From a virus: a stretch of DNA of 37,191 bases. Below are positions 25,188-36,628 of the stretch, one piece after another (the stretch's first letter is position 1; every line of letters begins with the position of its first letter). Made by a program: the position numbers and the translations under genes. The notes under the pieces are model-generated. The model searched no databases. It was not told the DNA's origin and saw nothing but the letters and a program-made list of their open reading frames with translations. Where the stretch lies: IMG/VR virus record IMGVR_UViG_3300032676_001408, positions 1 to 37,191 of that record; one strand, given 5' to 3'.

Positions 25188-26075
25188 ATGGATTTAATAG
25201 AAAGATTAAAAAATTATAAAGAACCACATTGTTATCAATATCAAATGAGGTTAGATAATTTAGAAAATGATTTAAAAGAACTTAATATGACATTAGAGGA
25301 ATCTAAATTATTAAGGGTTAATGATTTTTATTTTGAATCTGTTGATATGGTGGATTCTAAAACTAAAAAAGAATGTTTTGATTTTATTGTTAAAAATGAA
25401 TACTTAGGTAATCTAACACAATATTCCACAAATTATTATACCTGTAGATTAAAATCTAATAACTTTTTATCTGGTGTATTAATTTTTAGTATGCCTAACG
25501 CTTTTTCTAAATTATTAGGAGAAAATACAAAAGATATTGAGAGATTACTTAGCAGGGGAGCCTGTTCAGGATTTACACCAAAAAATCTTGCGAGTGCTTT
25601 TATTATGTGGAGTATAAAACATATGGTCCAAACTACGAAATATAGGCTCTTTACTTGCTACTCGGACCCTACAGCCCGTGAGCTCGGTACAGTCTATCAA
25701 GCAACAAATTTTTATTATTTAGGTCAAAAATCAGGAACAACTACTCGTTATATAAACCCATATACAGGAAAAGTAGTATCGGATAGGTTTTTTAGACAAA
25801 AAACAGCATATAGAAAATATGCTGTTGAGTTAGGTTTCAAATGGGAAAAAGATTGGAGTCATAAAACAGGTATAAATTGGGAAAATATTCCTGATGATAT
25901 AGAAAAATTATTAAGGGAACATTCTAAACAAAAGCAAAAAAGTTCTCAAAAAATTGATATGCCAAGTAAACATAAATATGCTTATGTTTTAGGTAAAGAT
26001 AATAGAGAAACTAAAATGTTAAGAAAGATATTTGAGGAAAGAAATAAATTATATTCTTATCCAAAAGAAAGATAG
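25188..26075 (+). CDS. Mom-like GNAT-fold protein, putative DNA base modification
   Basis: A 295-residue protein. The segment ERLLSRGACSGFTPKNLASA, then the basic KHMVQTTKYRLFTCYSDP (144-161) and GTVYQATNFYYLG (167-179), follows the Mu Mom-type GNAT architecture, in which an SDP-like segment and the G-T-x-Y-x-A-x-x-F-x-Y-x-G strand are hallmarks. Mu Mom adds a methylcarbamoyl group to adenine in phage DNA and so blocks restriction. The chemistry here is inferred. It has no recognised sensor for that modification, but it is cotranscribed with an RHH gene, which is analogous to the regulatory partner com in Mu. Bases 25620-25700 are clearly more GC-rich than the rest of the gene. Confidence 0.55.
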   Translation: MDLIERLKNYKEPHCYQYQMRLDNLENDLKELNMTLEESKLLRVNDFYFESVDMVDSKTKKECFDFIVKNEYLGNLTQYSTNYYTCRLKSNNFLSGVLIFSMPNAFSKLLGENTKDIERLLSRGACSGFTPKNLASAFIMWSIKHMVQTTKYRLFTCYSDPTARELGTVYQATNFYYLGQKSGTTTRYINPYTGKVVSDRFFRQKTAYRKYAVELGFKWEKDWSHKTGINWENIPDDIEKLLREHSKQKQKSSQKIDMPSKHKYAYVLGKDNRETKMLRKIFEERNKLYSYPKER

Positions 26076-31507: not shown

Positions 31508-33331
31508 ATGGCGAGAAGAAAACAACGGGATTCAAATCTAGAAGATGATTTTAGAGAAATTGAACAAATGAGTAAGTTTATTAAACAAGAAAAATCAAAA
31601 AATTTGATTTTTAAAATCAAAGCAAAATTTAAAAATCAAAAACAAAAATTAATGTATGATACAATTTTAGAAAATAGAATTACTCTTATACAAGGATCCG
31701 CAGGTACAGGTAAAGCTCAACCTATGTTTTGTAACATTTTAACCACTAATGGTTGGGTCAAAATGGGTGATATAAAAATTGGAGATGTTATTATTACACC
31801 TGATAATAAACAATCTATTATCAATGGTATTTTTCCTCAAGGAGAAAAGGACATTTATAAAATAACATTTTCCGATAATTCAGAAACATATTGTTGTGAT
31901 GAACATTTATGGGCTGTTAAAAATGAGGCTCAGAGAAATAAATATAAAAAAATTAATAATAAAAAAATTAAAGAAGAATTACCTTATAGCATTTTACAAT
32001 TAAAAGATATAAAAAATAATTTATATATTAGGAAGGGTAGAAAAAATTATAATATACCAATATCAAACGCAATAGATTTTAAAAAAGAAGAATATATAAT
32101 AGACCCTTATTTAATGGGATTTTTATTAGGAGATGGGACATTTGTAAATCATATTGGGTATTCAACTAGTGATGAAGAATTACATTTAAAAGTAAAAGAA
32201 ATAATTTCTAATACAAATTGCCAATCAAAATATTATTCAAATTATGATTATTCTATAATTGGTTTTAAACAAAAAAATTATATTTTAGATGAAATAAAAG
32301 ATCTTGGACTTTTTAATAAAAAATCAAATGAAAAATTTATTCCTAAAAAATATTTATTTTCAACAATTGAGGATAGAAAAAAATTATTATATGGATTAAT
32401 GGATACAGATGGTACTATTGATAAAAGAAATTCAGTTATATCATACTGCACTATATCTAAACAATTAAAAGATGATATTATAGAATTAGTAAATTCATTA
32501 GGTGGTATAGCAAAAGTAACTACTAAAATTCCTAATTTTACATATAAAGGTGTAAAAAAAGAAGGACAATTATGTTATATTATAAATATTAATTTAGATT
32601 TTAACCCATTTTCTTTGGAAAGGAAAAAATCTTTATTTAAAGAAAAATTAAAATATAAAGCTAGTAGATTTATAAAATCTATAGAATATTATGGAAAAGA
32701 ATTAGCACAATGTATTTCAATTGAAGATAAAAATCATTTATACATAACAGATAATTATATTGTTACTCATAATACGTTCATAGCTTTAATGACAGCTTTA
32801 GAATGTTTAAAAAATAAAAAAATAGGGCAAATAATTTTAACTAAACCTATAGTAGAAGTTTCAAAATCTATAGGTTTATTACCCGGTGAAATAGGGGATA
32901 AAACACACGCTTATTTTATACATTTTTATGATAATTTGAATAAATTAATTGGTTCAGAACAATCTTCTTATTTAAGAGATAATGGATTTATTATAGAATC
33001 AATTCTTAATTTTATGAGAGGGTTGACTTTTGATAATTTAGATGAAAGTGGTAAATCTATTGGAGCAATTGTTATATTAGACGAAGCTCAAAATACAAAC
33101 GTTCATGAAATGAAAACATTTATATCAAGAATGGGAGAAGATTGTAAATTAATAATAATGGGGGATGTTGATCAAAGTGATTTGAGATTACCTTTTAACG
33201 ATAAAAATGGATTAAAAGATGCAATAGATAGATTTCAAGATATGGAAAATGTAGGTTATGTAGAATTTACAGATGATGATATAGTAAGAGATCCATTTTT
33301 AATTGAAATCATGAAAAGATATAGAAAATAG
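31508..33331 (+). CDS. phoH: PhoH-like ATPase interrupted by an intein
   Basis: A 607-residue reading frame: 69 residues of PhoH, a 353-residue intein (70-422), then 185 more PhoH residues. The host protein would be 254 residues, the usual size of phage PhoH. Walker A GSAGTGK (63-69) precedes the intein directly, so the site is the nucleotide-binding loop, and the spliced sequence is GSAGTGKTFIAL. Walker B is IVILDEAQN and later parts are IIMGDVDQSD and FTDDDIVRDP. PhoH belongs to the SF1-like RNA/DNA helicase ATPases; the phage role is unknown. The frame ends in TAG inside a direct repeat. The gene is divergent from the fibre gene. Confidence 0.9.
   Translation: MARRKQRDSNLEDDFREIEQMSKFIKQEKSKNLIFKIKAKFKNQKQKLMYDTILENRITLIQGSAGTGKAQPMFCNILTTNGWVKMGDIKIGDVIITPDNKQSIINGIFPQGEKDIYKITFSDNSETYCCDEHLWAVKNEAQRNKYKKINNKKIKEELPYSILQLKDIKNNLYIRKGRKNYNIPISNAIDFKKEEYIIDPYLMGFLLGDGTFVNHIGYSTSDEELHLKVKEIISNTNCQSKYYSNYDYSIIGFKQKNYILDEIKDLGLFNKKSNEKFIPKKYLFSTIEDRKKLLYGLMDTDGTIDKRNSVISYCTISKQLKDDIIELVNSLGGIAKVTTKIPNFTYKGVKKEGQLCYIININLDFNPFSLERKKSLFKEKLKYKASRFIKSIEYYGKELAQCISIEDKNHLYITDNYIVTHNTFIALMTALECLKNKKIGQIILTKPIVEVSKSIGLLPGEIGDKTHAYFIHFYDNLNKLIGSEQSSYLRDNGFIIESILNFMRGLTFDNLDESGKSIGAIVILDEAQNTNVHEMKTFISRMGEDCKLIIMGDVDQSDLRLPFNDKNGLKDAIDRFQDMENVGYVEFTDDDIVRDPFLIEIMKRYRK
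31715..32773 (+). mobile_element. Class 3 intein with LAGLIDADG endonuclease in PhoH
   Basis: A 353-residue intein starting with Ala (AQPMFCNILTTNGW), so it lacks the Ser/Cys nucleophile at position 1. The WCT triplet of class 3 inteins is visible: Trp in the block B segment DEHLW, Cys in AQCISIEDKNHLY (block F), and Thr as +1 after the terminal VTHN. Two LAGLIDADG motifs (LMGFLLGDG and LLYGLMDTDG), about 100 residues apart, indicate an intact homing endonuclease. Confidence 0.85.
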
Positions 33332-33625: not shown

Positions 33626-34632
33626 TTAATAAACTTATTATCAGCTTCATCAAATGGATCTAAAAAATTATATCTTAAACTAAGAAAATCTTCTTTATTA
33701 AAGTTATCATTTAAATAAAAATCTTTTATACCTAAATAACAATCCCTTTTATAATCTAATAAAAGGGGTTTATTTTTTTTACCTCTTTTACCCCTTTTTT
33801 CTCTCTTAGTATATTCAACTTTTTCCCTTTTATTCTTATTCTTATTGTAGTAATAATTATCATTATTACAATCATAAAAATATGAACCTGTTTCTTTATA
33901 TTCTATTTCACCAACATTTCTTTTAGTAACTAAACTCTCCCAATCAACCATAGCAGATGCTACTGCTAATTTTTCTAAATAAAATATGTTTTGTTGTTCA
34001 TTATTAGTATGCTCATACATATAACCAACTGATATATTAGTACACTCAGGTATAACATCTGTAAATTCTGCTGAATCTGTATATACTCCATTTTGGTCTT
34101 TTTCTAAAATTAATCCAGATTTTTCATATTCGTATATTAAACTATTTGCAAAATCATCAGAACAAGTTCTTTTTCTTGATTGGTGAGTTATTACAGAAGT
34201 TTCTCCTCGTCTATCAAATGATATAATCCTTTTATATTTGTTAAATAAAAGTATATTTTTAGAAATATTCTTAGAACCTATACATCCAACTTCTTCTCCA
34301 ATAAAGAAATAATATAAACCAGGGATGTTTTTTTGTATCATGTAAAATAAAATACACATTCCTGCCTTATCATCTGCTCCTAATATAGTTTTACCATCTG
34401 TTTTTATGATATTGTCATCAATAACATGTTTAACATTAGATTTAATTTTACAAGCAGTATCTATATGACACGCAAATACTGTGTCACTATTTCCAATTTT
34501 TAGAAAATAGTTACCGACCATATCTTTTTGTGTATTATCAGGTAGATAACGAATGATATCATCTTCTGTACCATTTGGATAGGTTTCAGATGTTAGTGTT
34601 AAAAATGTTTCTTTGATGTTTAGATAATTCAT
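33577..34632 (-). CDS. M28/M20-type zinc metallopeptidase
   Basis: A 351-residue protein. Zinc-ligand positions are visible in order: ACHIDTA (H56 and D58), GADDKAG (D87/D88), GEEVG (E113, E114), SFDRRG (D140) and GYMYEHTNNE (H208). This is the H-D-E-E-D-H layout of co-catalytic metallopeptidases such as M28 or M42. The N-terminal 220 residues make up the catalytic domain. The last 120 contain a lysine/arginine-rich linker (KREKVEYTKREKRGKRGKK), probably unstructured or nucleic-acid binding, then an acidic tail. Substrate and role in infection are not known; processing of peptides for nucleotide or amino acid supply is possible. It starts 60 bp from a divergent gene. Confidence 0.75.
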   Translation of the reverse strand: MNYLNIKETFLTLTSETYPNGTEDDIIRYLPDNTQKDMVGNYFLKIGNSDTVFACHIDTACKIKSNVKHVIDDNIIKTDGKTILGADDKAGMCILFYMIQKNIPGLYYFFIGEEVGCIGSKNISKNILLFNKYKRIISFDRRGETSVITHQSRKRTCSDDFANSLIYEYEKSGLILEKDQNGVYTDSAEFTDVIPECTNISVGYMYEHTNNEQQNIFYLEKLAVASAMVDWESLVTKRNVGEIEYKETGSYFYDCNNDNYYYNKNKNKREKVEYTKREKRGKRGKKNKPLLLDYKRDCYLGIKDFYLNDNFNKEDFLSLRYNFLDPFDEADNKFINQMELKFSMEKLGLVL

Positions 34633-34645
34633 ATTTTTATTTTTA

Positions 34646-34676
34646 CAAATATAAGAAAAATATTTGAAATAAAAAA
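34646..34676 (-). promoter_or_regulatory. Weak Bacteroidota-type promoter for the peptidase gene
   Basis: On the minus strand TATATTTG (34653-34646) lies 13 nt before the start codon at 34632. At the expected -33 position (19 nt further) only TTTT is seen instead of TTTG, so the call rests on the -7 octamer and spacing to the start. Confidence 0.4.
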
Positions 34677-34691
34677 ATTAATATATATAAT

Positions 34692-35399
34692 ATGATTAAG
34701 ATAGATAATACACATGATGCTAATAAATACTATAAATTAGTTAATGACTTTATAGATAAGTATATTGTAGATTGGAAAATCAAACCTTCTAGGTTAGCGA
34801 GCTATTTAAAGAATAGTGAAAAATTTGAAAAATTTTTAGATAAAAATAATTTAAAAGAAGTGTGGAATATTAATAGAATAATTAACGATGTTATAGAAGA
34901 CAGAACAGGTTTAGAACACGATGGGGTTTTAAAATTTGAAAAATACTCTTTATTAAAAGAAAATTTAATAAACTTAGGGACAGCAGATATTTCTTATGAA
35001 AAAGTATTAGCAGATTATTATAATATTGGATTAAGTCATATTTTATTAAGAGATGCTTCTTTAAATATGTATTTAATACAAGATTTTGATACTAAAAAAT
35101 ATGCAGTAATATATTCTGATAGTGACTTAACTAAAAATTTAGAAAATATTAGATTTACTATTCAAAAGAAAATAATATTAGATTATCATGAGATTGATGA
35201 TTTAGAAGGTTATAGTTTTAATTTAGATTTAAGAATTGGTGATGTTACTGATAATAAAAAATTAACAACAAAATTAAATGAGGTAATAGATGAAAACTTT
35301 TTCTTATCTATATTAAAACAAACTATATATAAAAAATATGATAAATATAGTAAATACCATAAAGAAGGAGTTTATCATATATTAGAATTAATAGACTAA
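34692..35399 (+). CDS. Hypothetical protein
   Basis: A 235-residue protein, not recognised. It is soluble and highly charged, with an N-terminal helical part (WKIKPSRLASYLKNSEKFEK) and an alternating strand/helix second half (LNMYLIQDFDTKKYAVIYSD). It contains no transmembrane segment or catalytic signature that I can see. It starts 11 nt after the TTAATATATATAAT element typical of gene starts here, without Shine-Dalgarno. Its position before the gp26-like gene allows, but does not prove, a tail-assembly role. Confidence 0.6.
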   Translation: MIKIDNTHDANKYYKLVNDFIDKYIVDWKIKPSRLASYLKNSEKFEKFLDKNNLKEVWNINRIINDVIEDRTGLEHDGVLKFEKYSLLKENLINLGTADISYEKVLADYYNIGLSHILLRDASLNMYLIQDFDTKKYAVIYSDSDLTKNLENIRFTIQKKIILDYHEIDDLEGYSFNLDLRIGDVTDNKKLTTKLNEVIDENFFLSILKQTIYKKYDKYSKYHKEGVYHILELID

Positions 35400-35460: not shown

Positions 35461-36387
35461 ATGAACGAAAATATTTCAGAACAAGATTATTTAAGAAAAC
35501 ACTTAGAACAAGTCGAAGGAAAGAATATTAACCCTGAAAAAACACAAACTGAAAATAAAACTACTATAGATACTACTGTATCTAATTTAAATTATTTTAC
35601 AGTTGATGTAAAAGAACTACCTTCTGGTATTTTTTATCCTGCTGGAACTACAATTCAAATAAGACCTGCTGAAGTTAAAGAGATACAAGCATATTCAATG
35701 GTAGATGATAATAATTTCCATGACATCGTTGAAAAAATGAACGAGATGTTATCTGCTTGTGTAAGAGTTAAATATGCGAATGGTAAAGTTGGTTCTTATT
35801 TAGATTTAAGAGATTCTGACAGATTCTATTTAATATTTGCTATTAAAGAATTAACTTTCCAAAACGGAACAAACTTAATATCAACTGTTGAGTGTTCTTG
35901 TGGAGCAGAAGTTAATATAGAATTAGTTAGAAAGAATTTCAGATTTTTTAAAATTGATGATAAGTTAAAAAACTATTTTGATCCAACAAATGGTTACTTT
36001 ACATTTGAAACTACATCAGGTAATACATACAATATGTGTCCTCCTACAATAGGATTACAAAAGAATTTTACAGATTATATTATTGAAACTAAACAAAAAG
36101 ATAAGAAAATTAATATGTCTTTCTTAAAGATAGTTCCATTTACATTAGTAAATAGAACATCTATAACTACAGAAGGTATTAATTCTAAATTAAATGAGTT
36201 TACAAAAATGAATGGGGCTGATTTCCAATTTTTATTTTCCGCAGTTGATTTAATGAATTTTGGAATTGAAAAAATTGTTAAGAATTGTAGCTGTGGCTTG
36301 GAGGTCCACAGCAAAATGTTGTTTCCCGACGGAGCGTCAGCTCTTTTCGTTGTTTCAAATGCCTTTGATAAGTATATTAAAAAATAA
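35461..36387 (+). CDS. gp26-like baseplate hub assembly protein
   Basis: A 308-residue protein. The segment VDVKELPSGIFYPAGTTIQI followed by RPAEVKEIQAYSM matches the LPS-x-G-x-x-Y-x-x-G-x-x-I-x-x-R pattern of the T4 baseplate (gp26) family. Two C-S-C-G motifs (VECSCG and NCSCGLEV), about 120 residues apart, probably bind zinc. T4 gp26 is needed for assembly of the hub and tape measure. The frame ends at AAAAAATAA, and the following gene reads in the +1 frame with no good upstream start. A GC-rich segment (36285-36365) with a hairpin lies near the 3' end. Confidence 0.65.
   Translation: MNENISEQDYLRKHLEQVEGKNINPEKTQTENKTTIDTTVSNLNYFTVDVKELPSGIFYPAGTTIQIRPAEVKEIQAYSMVDDNNFHDIVEKMNEMLSACVRVKYANGKVGSYLDLRDSDRFYLIFAIKELTFQNGTNLISTVECSCGAEVNIELVRKNFRFFKIDDKLKNYFDPTNGYFTFETTSGNTYNMCPPTIGLQKNFTDYIIETKQKDKKINMSFLKIVPFTLVNRTSITTEGINSKLNEFTKMNGADFQFLFSAVDLMNFGIEKIVKNCSCGLEVHSKMLFPDGASALFVVSNAFDKYIKK
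36290..36312 (+). other. Hairpin with SD-like loop in the gp26-like gene
   Basis: A 7-bp perfect stem (36290-36296 with 36306-36312) and a 9-nt loop CTTGGAGGT that contains GGAGG, in otherwise AT-rich coding DNA. It could affect ribosome movement about 75 nt before the gene end. Confidence 0.5.
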
Positions 36388-36427
36388 ACTTTTATTACAA
36401 AAGCACTACAACTGTCAAGAAATAAGT

Positions 36428-36607
36428 ATGAATACTTGGCCTTTTTGGATGTTTGAAGAGAATATAAAATTAGTTAATCAACTAATTGAAGAAGAAGAAA
36501 AGCAAAGAAAAACCGAAGAAGAAAAACAAAAAACAAATATGCCTAATATGAATACATCATCTATGATGAGTGGTATGTCATCAATGGCAAATAAATTCAA
36601 GCGTTAG
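36428..36607 (+). CDS. Small helical protein or frameshift extension of the gp26-like protein
   Basis: From ATG 36428 this gives a 59-residue protein (MNTWPFWMFEENIKLVNQLI, then a K/E/Q-rich helix and a methionine-rich tail). The same frame stays open back to 36260, inside the gp26-like gene in +1 register, and upstream of ATG it reads KNKLLLQKHYNCQEIS. This looks like a continuation of the gp26-like chain (DKYIK + NKLLLQ). A +1 (or -2) slip at AAAAAATAA would make a fused product of about 380 residues. A separate small gene is the simpler alternative. It ends within a strong terminator. Confidence 0.55.
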   Translation: MNTWPFWMFEENIKLVNQLIEEEEKQRKTEEEKQKTNMPNMNTSSMMSGMSSMANKFKR

Positions 36608-36628
36608 TTGATACTAACGCTTGAATTT
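36593..36628. terminator. Bidirectional intrinsic terminator
   Basis: A 16-bp perfect stem (36593-36608 with 36613-36628), loop TGAT and T tract afterwards, between convergent ends at 36607 and 36634. The arms share the last codons of the small protein. Confidence 0.9.

Follow-up and report, generated by a model that had tools for sequence, protein, structure and literature searches.

A conserved TTT CCC site as the very probable point of +1 frameshifting in a T4 gp26/gp51-related phage gene

Tail assembly chaperones made in two forms by frameshifting are known, with lambda gpG/gpGT as the reference case, and the lambda shift is given as −1 in PMC5009743. Here we consider a 308-codon open reading frame (ORF) on the plus strand of IMG/VR virus record IMGVR_UViG_3300032676_001408, a 37,191-base stretch analyzed as a whole and called the window below. 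Our comparative analysis suggests that this one gene very probably yields two tail-assembly chaperones, of 308 and 381 residues, through a +1 slip at the codons TTT CCC. It would thus differ from lambda in direction (+1 as opposed to −1, at UUU_CCC with an upstream GGAGG hairpin) and in the affiliation of its protein with the T4_baseplate family. Lambda-type chaperone genes lie between those for the tail tube and the tape measure protein, and the likeness may extend to this placement: in the related phages PAU and pT24, the gene directly upstream matches tail tube models. While frameshifting chaperones are known, this +1 site, its hairpin and the reversed direction would be new: a literature search over titles and abstract openings, among the matches listed and covering few subscription journals, returned no frameshift described in this gene family, and the word frameshift is absent from the text available for three papers on such phages (PMC12619734, PMC11165621, PMC9723584).

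The gene for release factor 2, prfB, shares with the window gene a +1 slip and an upstream element resembling a Shine-Dalgarno (SD) sequence. As described in PMC12421855, prfB slips at CUU UGA with the SD 3 nt away, whereas the window gene has UUU CCC, a sense codon, a 17-nt spacing and a hairpin. Listeria phage PSA likewise has +1 shifts in structural genes, those for its capsid and tail shaft proteins, but it slips on a proline codon followed by a pseudoknot or a stop (PMC5009743). No general motif for +1 slip sites has been agreed, according to PMC10885494, and UUU before a rare CCC would be a natural and conserved example.

Overlap, slip site and extension

The 308-codon ORF ends in ATT AAA AAA TAA, and the +1 frame (which is also the −2 frame), open from 36257, continues past the stop as ...LKNKLLLQKHYNCQEIS ahead of an ATG at 36428. 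A preliminary sequence-only reading had noted the 0-frame stop, the +1 read-on before this ATG and a GGAGG hairpin upstream, all of which are confirmed in the sequence letters; it had also regarded ATG 36428 as the first of its frame, which is true only downstream of the 0-frame stop. An open overlap in the window sequence by itself proves little: when synonymous codons from TTT to the stop were resampled in 500 trials, the overlap stayed open in 54% of them, with a mean of 46% over the 65 representatives introduced below. The evidence lies in the conservation of the overlap.

Relatives of the 308-aa ORF are present in 29 phage records: 15 Lak phages of Prevotella, 6 uncultured phages (462-735 kb), 5 Tenacibaculum records (pT24, PTm1, PTm5), 2 of phage PAU, and Flavobacterium phage MaF61. 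As queries, the window protein gave no relatives in a viral scan and the MaF61 protein gave none among bacterial and archaeal genomes. Viral contig scans supplied further loci, bringing the total to 161 with a 0-frame stop, the window included; second copies of pT24 (L164), L004 (L080) and L005 (L165) are counted, the second PAU copy (L079) was left out, and L067 was dropped as its contig ends before the 0-frame stop. Because many of these loci are near-duplicates, the fair sample size is 65 representatives with less than 95% identity over the last 450 nt before that stop. For the window and 11 of its relatives, the open part of the +1 frame upstream of the 0-frame stop measures 59-131 nt; the frame then continues beyond that stop, for 157-400 nt in 11 of the 12, with Lak-B5 reaching a TAG after 55 nt. 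An overlap of at least 59 nt plus an extension of at least 150 nt is found in the +1 frame of 160/161 loci, and in the −1 frame of 0/161. The sole exception, Lak-B5, reads on if TAG encodes Gln, which we take to be the Lak code. The overlap is conserved down to ~21% protein identity to the window. As in G/GT-type genes, the second ORF overlaps in another frame without a conserved start, and a conserved slippery sequence, TTT CCC, lies within the overlap, although the direction is +1 and not the usual −1.

Table 1. Features of the window gene and its +1-frame extension
Feature	Coordinates	Strand	Description and basis
0-frame ORF, 308 aa	35461..36387	+	Putative tail/baseplate hub assembly chaperone of T4 gp26/gp51 type (T4_baseplate), short form; ends at TAA 36385-36387; PF12322 scores in relatives and structure matches
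Upstream hairpin enclosing GGAGG	36290..36312	+	Stem of 7 bp in the window, 6-bp consensus tested; covariation
SD-like GGAGG	36300..36304	+	17 nt before the slip codon; exact spacing in 61/65
Putative slip site TTT CCC	36322..36327	+	TTT 65/65, CCC 58/65; onset of synonymous suppression; +1-frame stop 5 nt upstream in 9/65
Dual-coding overlap	36322..36387	+	0 and +1 frames both constrained; synonymous suppression and pN/pS
+1-frame extension, 94 aa (FPTERQLFSLF...KFKR)	36323..36607	+	Stop TAG 36605-36607; would give the 381-aa long product; conservation, pN/pS, homology to the cyanophage −1 extension
+1-frame ATG (MPL)	36359..36361	+	Rival internal start, absent in distant relatives; start-like codon at that distance from the stop in 49/65
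ATG, supposed start of a separate gene	36428..36430	+	Unconserved; Met 35/64, I, V, L or A in the rest

Candidate sites were chosen by the motif TTTC, exactly one of which occurs in the searched stretch of 159/161 loci. TTT is invariant across the representatives, while their upstream Phe codons comprise 483 TTT and 278 TTC. The next codon is CCC in 58, CAA in 4, CCT in 2 and CGA in 1; CCC accounts for 1/329 upstream Pro codons and for 10 of the 9,830 codons in 22 window ORFs, among which in-frame TTTCCC occurs once. Neither TTTCCC (15 found, 19.1 expected) nor GGAGG (19 found, 15.75 expected) is unusual in the window as such, and it is their fixed position alone that is telling.

Synonymous variation points to the same place. 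Among 31 close representatives, the ratio of observed to expected synonymous change falls to 0.10-0.23 in nine-codon spans from TTT CCC to the stop, compared with a mean of 1.03 over all spans, with single-codon exceptions inside the suppressed stretch at 36334 (0.90) and 36355 (1.07). The codons at 36310 (1.57) and 36319 (1.21), before TTT, vary freely, and upstream of 36310 only the GAG GAG GTC CAC block (36298-36309) is frozen (0.00-0.32). In the nine representatives with a +1-frame stop 5 nt ahead of TTT, that stop means that the shift can occur no earlier than the codon before TTT, which itself varies. The ratio of nonsynonymous to synonymous polymorphism (pN/pS, from 47 close sequences) in the overlap is 0.36 for the +1 frame, 0.67 for the 0 frame and 2.57 for the unused frame.

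Since re-pairing from UUU to UUC is the only one open to all 65 representatives, we infer that tRNA-Phe slips by +1 at UUU-C while a slow codon occupies the A site. Slippage on CCC itself would give an identical product and is possible in 58/65, but impossible in the 7 with CAA, CCT or CGA, where by base-pairing reasoning UUU alone can re-pair. A slip at [CA]TT TTC (window 36343-36348), +1 or −2, was also considered, as most relatives have this motif; it was ruled out because constraint begins 21 nt earlier and because Lak, pT24 and L081/L084 do not have it. The sequence-only reading had put the shift at AAAAAATAA, with a junction peptide IK-NKLLLQ. This placement did not hold: the two codons that precede the stop are variable (AAA GAA in 40/65, AAA AAA in 5/65), so that AAAAAATAA is not a conserved slip site, and the likely site lies 63 nt upstream, with the expected junction ...MLFP-TERQLFSLF.... 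Its broader proposals of a +1-type shift uniting the two frames, and of products of 308 and about 380 residues, agree with the conserved overlap, the slip site and selection on the extension.

Most ribosomes would terminate at 36385 and release the 308-residue short form, while some would stall with tRNA-Phe on UUU (36322), because the next codon, the CCC waiting in the A site, is rare, and would then move from UUU to UUC, +1. If the pair works as lambda G/GT does, the tape measure protein would be coated by the short form, with the long form bringing in subunits of the tail tube.

Between the 0-frame stop and the ATG 36428 column, pN/pS is 0.24, and beyond that column 0.30; judged by this conservation, the extension is a real protein under purifying selection. 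Twenty-five aligned extensions form one domain, FSLFQMPL...(L/W)P(F/Y)(W/Y)EFE...EEE, from the window group to PAU and MaF61 and, more weakly, Lak; in the LR756501 group and Lak the domain starts only after the 0-frame stop. A predicted model of the 381-aa product (mean pLDDT 75.4, pTM 0.60) has confident helices at 302-316 and 328-359 and a poorly predicted junction. Matches to phrog_634 ("baseplate hub assembly catalyst") at E ≤0.01 were obtained for four of the 25 extensions (best 3e-4), and a Pfam scan of all 25 returned stray hits only, none in more than 2 members. T4 gp28, tried as a home for the extension, gave no match. Where the extension ends, between convergent ORFs, a near-perfect inverted repeat at 36593-36628 (AAGCGTTAGT...ACTAACGCTT) runs into T-rich sequence and resembles a terminator acting in both directions.

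Upstream hairpin and the ribosome

The window stem pairs 36290-36296 with 36306-36312, and a 35-nt piece containing it folds at −13 kcal/mol (z −2.7). In 61/65 representatives the first base of GGAGG is exactly 22 nt ahead of TTT; in 2 the motif lies elsewhere within 40 nt and in 2 it is absent, and the 410 nt of these genes preceding that upstream stretch contain none. At −21, 62/65 have GAG as the Glu codon, while upstream Glu codons comprise 581 GAA and 184 GAG. The hairpin alignment holds 60 of the 65 representatives, L007-L011 being unalignable there, and 56 of those 60 are tips of the hairpin tree, from which L004, L006, L081 and L084 were excluded. Across the 60 sequences, 92.5% of stem cells are paired and 4/6 pairs have changed on both sides; the covariation score of 0.206 was reached by 0/500 shuffles, and slid versions of the stem gave at most 0.116. 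Parsimony on the 56-tip tree counts, for one pair, six changes of TA to CG, four to the wobble TG and three to the mismatch CA. In L004, L081 and L084 the pairing appears by eye to be shifted by one base; L084 folds that way, while L004 does not, nor does PAU. The GGAGG hairpin arrangement is missing from L005, L010 and L011. As a candidate downstream stem, RNAalifold suggests 3 bp across the slip site. The sequence-only reading had drawn GGAGG as part of the loop; the conserved hairpin stands, but in the best fold of the 35-nt piece the two final G bases of the motif are paired with a CU that also lies within the loop.

Taken together, the GGAGG hairpin is probably a stimulator of the frameshift, aiding the forward move either through base pairing with 16S rRNA or through refolding where the mRNA leaves the ribosome. 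By reasoning, refolding behind the ribosome would pull the mRNA forward, which suits a +1 shift.

Prevotella, Tenacibaculum and Flavobacterium belong to the Bacteroidota. The host of the window phage is probably of this phylum too, although it can be placed only through its relatives, whose hosts are mostly Bacteroidota, with PAU listed for Sphingomonas, outside the phylum. If the hosts are Bacteroidota, an SD-like element faces ribosomes thought to hide the matching rRNA: PMC9976891 describes Bacteroidia ribosomes as sequestering the anti-SD in a bS21/bS18/bS6 pocket. The prfB of F. johnsoniae nevertheless retains AGGAGG though its ribosomes hide the anti-SD (PMC8710568). A phage bS21 has been proposed to favor phage transcripts late in infection (PMC9723584). 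Matches to bS21 were found in 9 of 17 searched records (LR756502, LR745206, LR756501, LR756504 and five IMG/VR contigs of 153-508 kb, in a set that includes L167-L172), and none in LR756500, PAU, two Lak phages, pT24, MaF61, PTm1 or the window fragment. A tight link between bS21 and GGAGG was rejected, as the L005 phage has bS21 without GGAGG, and Lak-C1, PAU and LR756500 have GGAGG (Lak-B5 CGAGG) without a bS21 match. It is thus a doubtful idea that the 16S rRNA tail reads the GGAGG hairpin during elongation and that a phage bS21 swap sets the ratio of short to long forms late in infection; because the match is so loose, we offer this as a guess.

Competing explanations

One alternative is two separate genes, with a small downstream protein made from its own internal start at ATG 36359 or ATG 36428. 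Annotation leans this way, the tail end being a separate small gene in PAU, pT24, MaF61 and PTm1, and a start-like +1-frame codon exists at the distance of ATG 36359 in 49/65 representatives. However, that codon is missing in the other 16, dual-coding constraint begins at TTT, 37 nt ahead of it, and the column of ATG 36428 holds Met in just 35 of 64 (L008 being too short to count). Separate genes with no conservation before ATG 36428 were the pattern named beforehand as telling against a frameshift, and what we found there is the conserved stop-to-ATG stretch described above. Separate starts are therefore very unlikely. Open reading by chance, or a relic overlap without function, could account for an overlap that resampling so often leaves open, but not readily for its conservation at great protein distance, purifying selection on both sides of the stop and collapsed synonymous change, and it is next to impossible.

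Two other routes would produce the same long protein. A −2 shift, for which phage Mu is a known case, leads into the same frame, and frame alone cannot separate the two; by base-pairing reasoning, however, no tRNA re-pairs two bases back at TTT CCC, while UUU to UUC is perfect +1 re-pairing in every representative, and a −2 shift is extremely improbable. Slippage of the RNA polymerase, giving a fused mRNA, is known in other genes (PMC5009743), but three T and three C make too short a run and a rare A-site codon would be irrelevant to it, which leaves this route barely plausible. The +1 slip by the ribosome at TTT CCC remains the reading that we prefer.

Several observations weigh against this preferred reading. 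L005/L165 (two loci, one sequence) have no TTTC, with TAC CCC in its place, and no GGAGG, and the TTTC of PTm1 (L011), measured from the conserved (L/I)F, is displaced upstream by about 6 codons and has no GGAGG nearby. The hairpin is unremarkable as a single-sequence fold outside the window (z −1.6 in L084, −1.2 in pT24, −0.6 in L001, and about 0 in PAU and L004, where another fold wins); the Lak form differs (z −0.5), and Lak-C1 can form a different stem around GGAGG. At 17 nt upstream, GGAGG is too distant for a classical prfB-type push. As for the protein, the window sequence itself has no Pfam hit, a 12-member profile of the 0-frame proteins matches T4 gp26 weakly (hhalign 71.7% over 65 columns) and does not match gp51 (6%), the +1 extension compared directly with T4 gp51 is not significant, and the neighboring ORFs in the window are not recognizable tail genes. 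As an aside, L005 and L165 (an LR756504-type homologue) retain both overlap and extension, and their slip mechanism may differ.

T4, cyanophages and the gene neighborhood

Against the Pfam cut-off of 24.5 bits for PF12322 (T4_baseplate, the T4 gp26/gp51 family), PAU gp93 (33.9) and LR756500 (29.2) score above and LR756501 (21.1) below, 2 of the 12 aligned members passing. Foldseek against viral models returned a T4-like baseplate hub assembly protein (E 9.5e-7) and an SP-15 baseplate hub subunit (E 7.6e-8). No match in a PDB fold search reached an E below 1 (the HK97 tail chaperone, at E 2.7, is no evidence), and a PDB sequence search with the 0-frame profile gave one stray hit (E 0.059). On sequence matches, the relatives probably belong to the T4 gp26/gp51 chaperone family, in keeping with the tail-chaperone link first proposed, and the two predicted products resemble a short and a long tail assembly chaperone. 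For huge phages, Lak and a 735-kb genome among them, this would provide a recognizable pair of tail-assembly chaperones; in the annotated records covered, its second half appears as a separate small gene.

The comparison with T4 extends to the second product. In T4, the pair is encoded by two separate paralogous genes (gp26 and gp51, BLASTP E 2e-6) on opposite strands, with the gp51 extension in frame; both belong to PF12322, for which two relatives of the window protein pass the cut-off, and the +1 extension is tied to the gp51 C-terminus via phrog_634 (T4 gp51, E 1.2e-23) and a cyanophage form. Downstream of gp26, cyanophage S-RIM8, Sinorhizobium phage phiM9 and Agrobacterium phage OLIVR6 carry a small −1-frame gene annotated "baseplate hub assembly catalyst (gp51)"; in Aeromonas phage 65.2 the same frame is open and unannotated. 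With 80 further loci listed, there are at least 84 such −1 loci (79 representatives). TTTTTTC stands ten bases before the gp26 stop in 82/84 loci among the matches listed and in 77/79 representatives, the exceptions being phiM9 (TTTTTTG) and OLIVR6 (TTTTTTC one codon earlier), and the upstream Phe-Phe codon pairs of the listed gp26 genes include no TTT TTC. All but one of these 84 listed loci have a −1 extension of at least 120 nt, the remaining one being L202 (41 nt), where the DNA stretch ends. Because of the −1 frame and this near-invariant motif, the small "gp51" after gp26 in T4-like cyanophages and others (L173-L176, L181-L260) probably represents an extension reached by −1 frameshifting, as opposed to a gene of its own, and T_TTT_TTC is the likely −1 slip site in T4-like cyanophages.

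The extension of these cyanophage and rhizobial phage genes is homologous to that of the window family, in a shifted frame that is −1 and not +1: the +1 extension profile matches the cyanophage −1 extension at hhalign 96% (E 4e-9; eight column-shuffled controls E 2e-4 or worse), and the latter matches the T4 gp51 C-terminus at 97% (E 2e-11). Depending on the phage, the short and long forms would thus come from +1 slippage, from −1 slippage or from two genes. If true, one protein pair obtained in these different ways would explain T4 gp51, which is described as needed for assembly yet absent from the particle (PMC3004832).

Elsewhere in the window, a 607-aa ORF at 31508-33331 resembles phage terminases in its first part (matches to several models) and PhoH at its C-terminus, and carries LAGLIDADG/Hom_end homing endonuclease domains of the kind present in inteins. 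A Mom-like DNA modification protein (PF25680) lies at 25188-26075. Finally, the stretches 1278-1345 and ~34627-34693 are 84% alike on opposite strands, mostly intergenic, and possibly represent a repeated promoter region.
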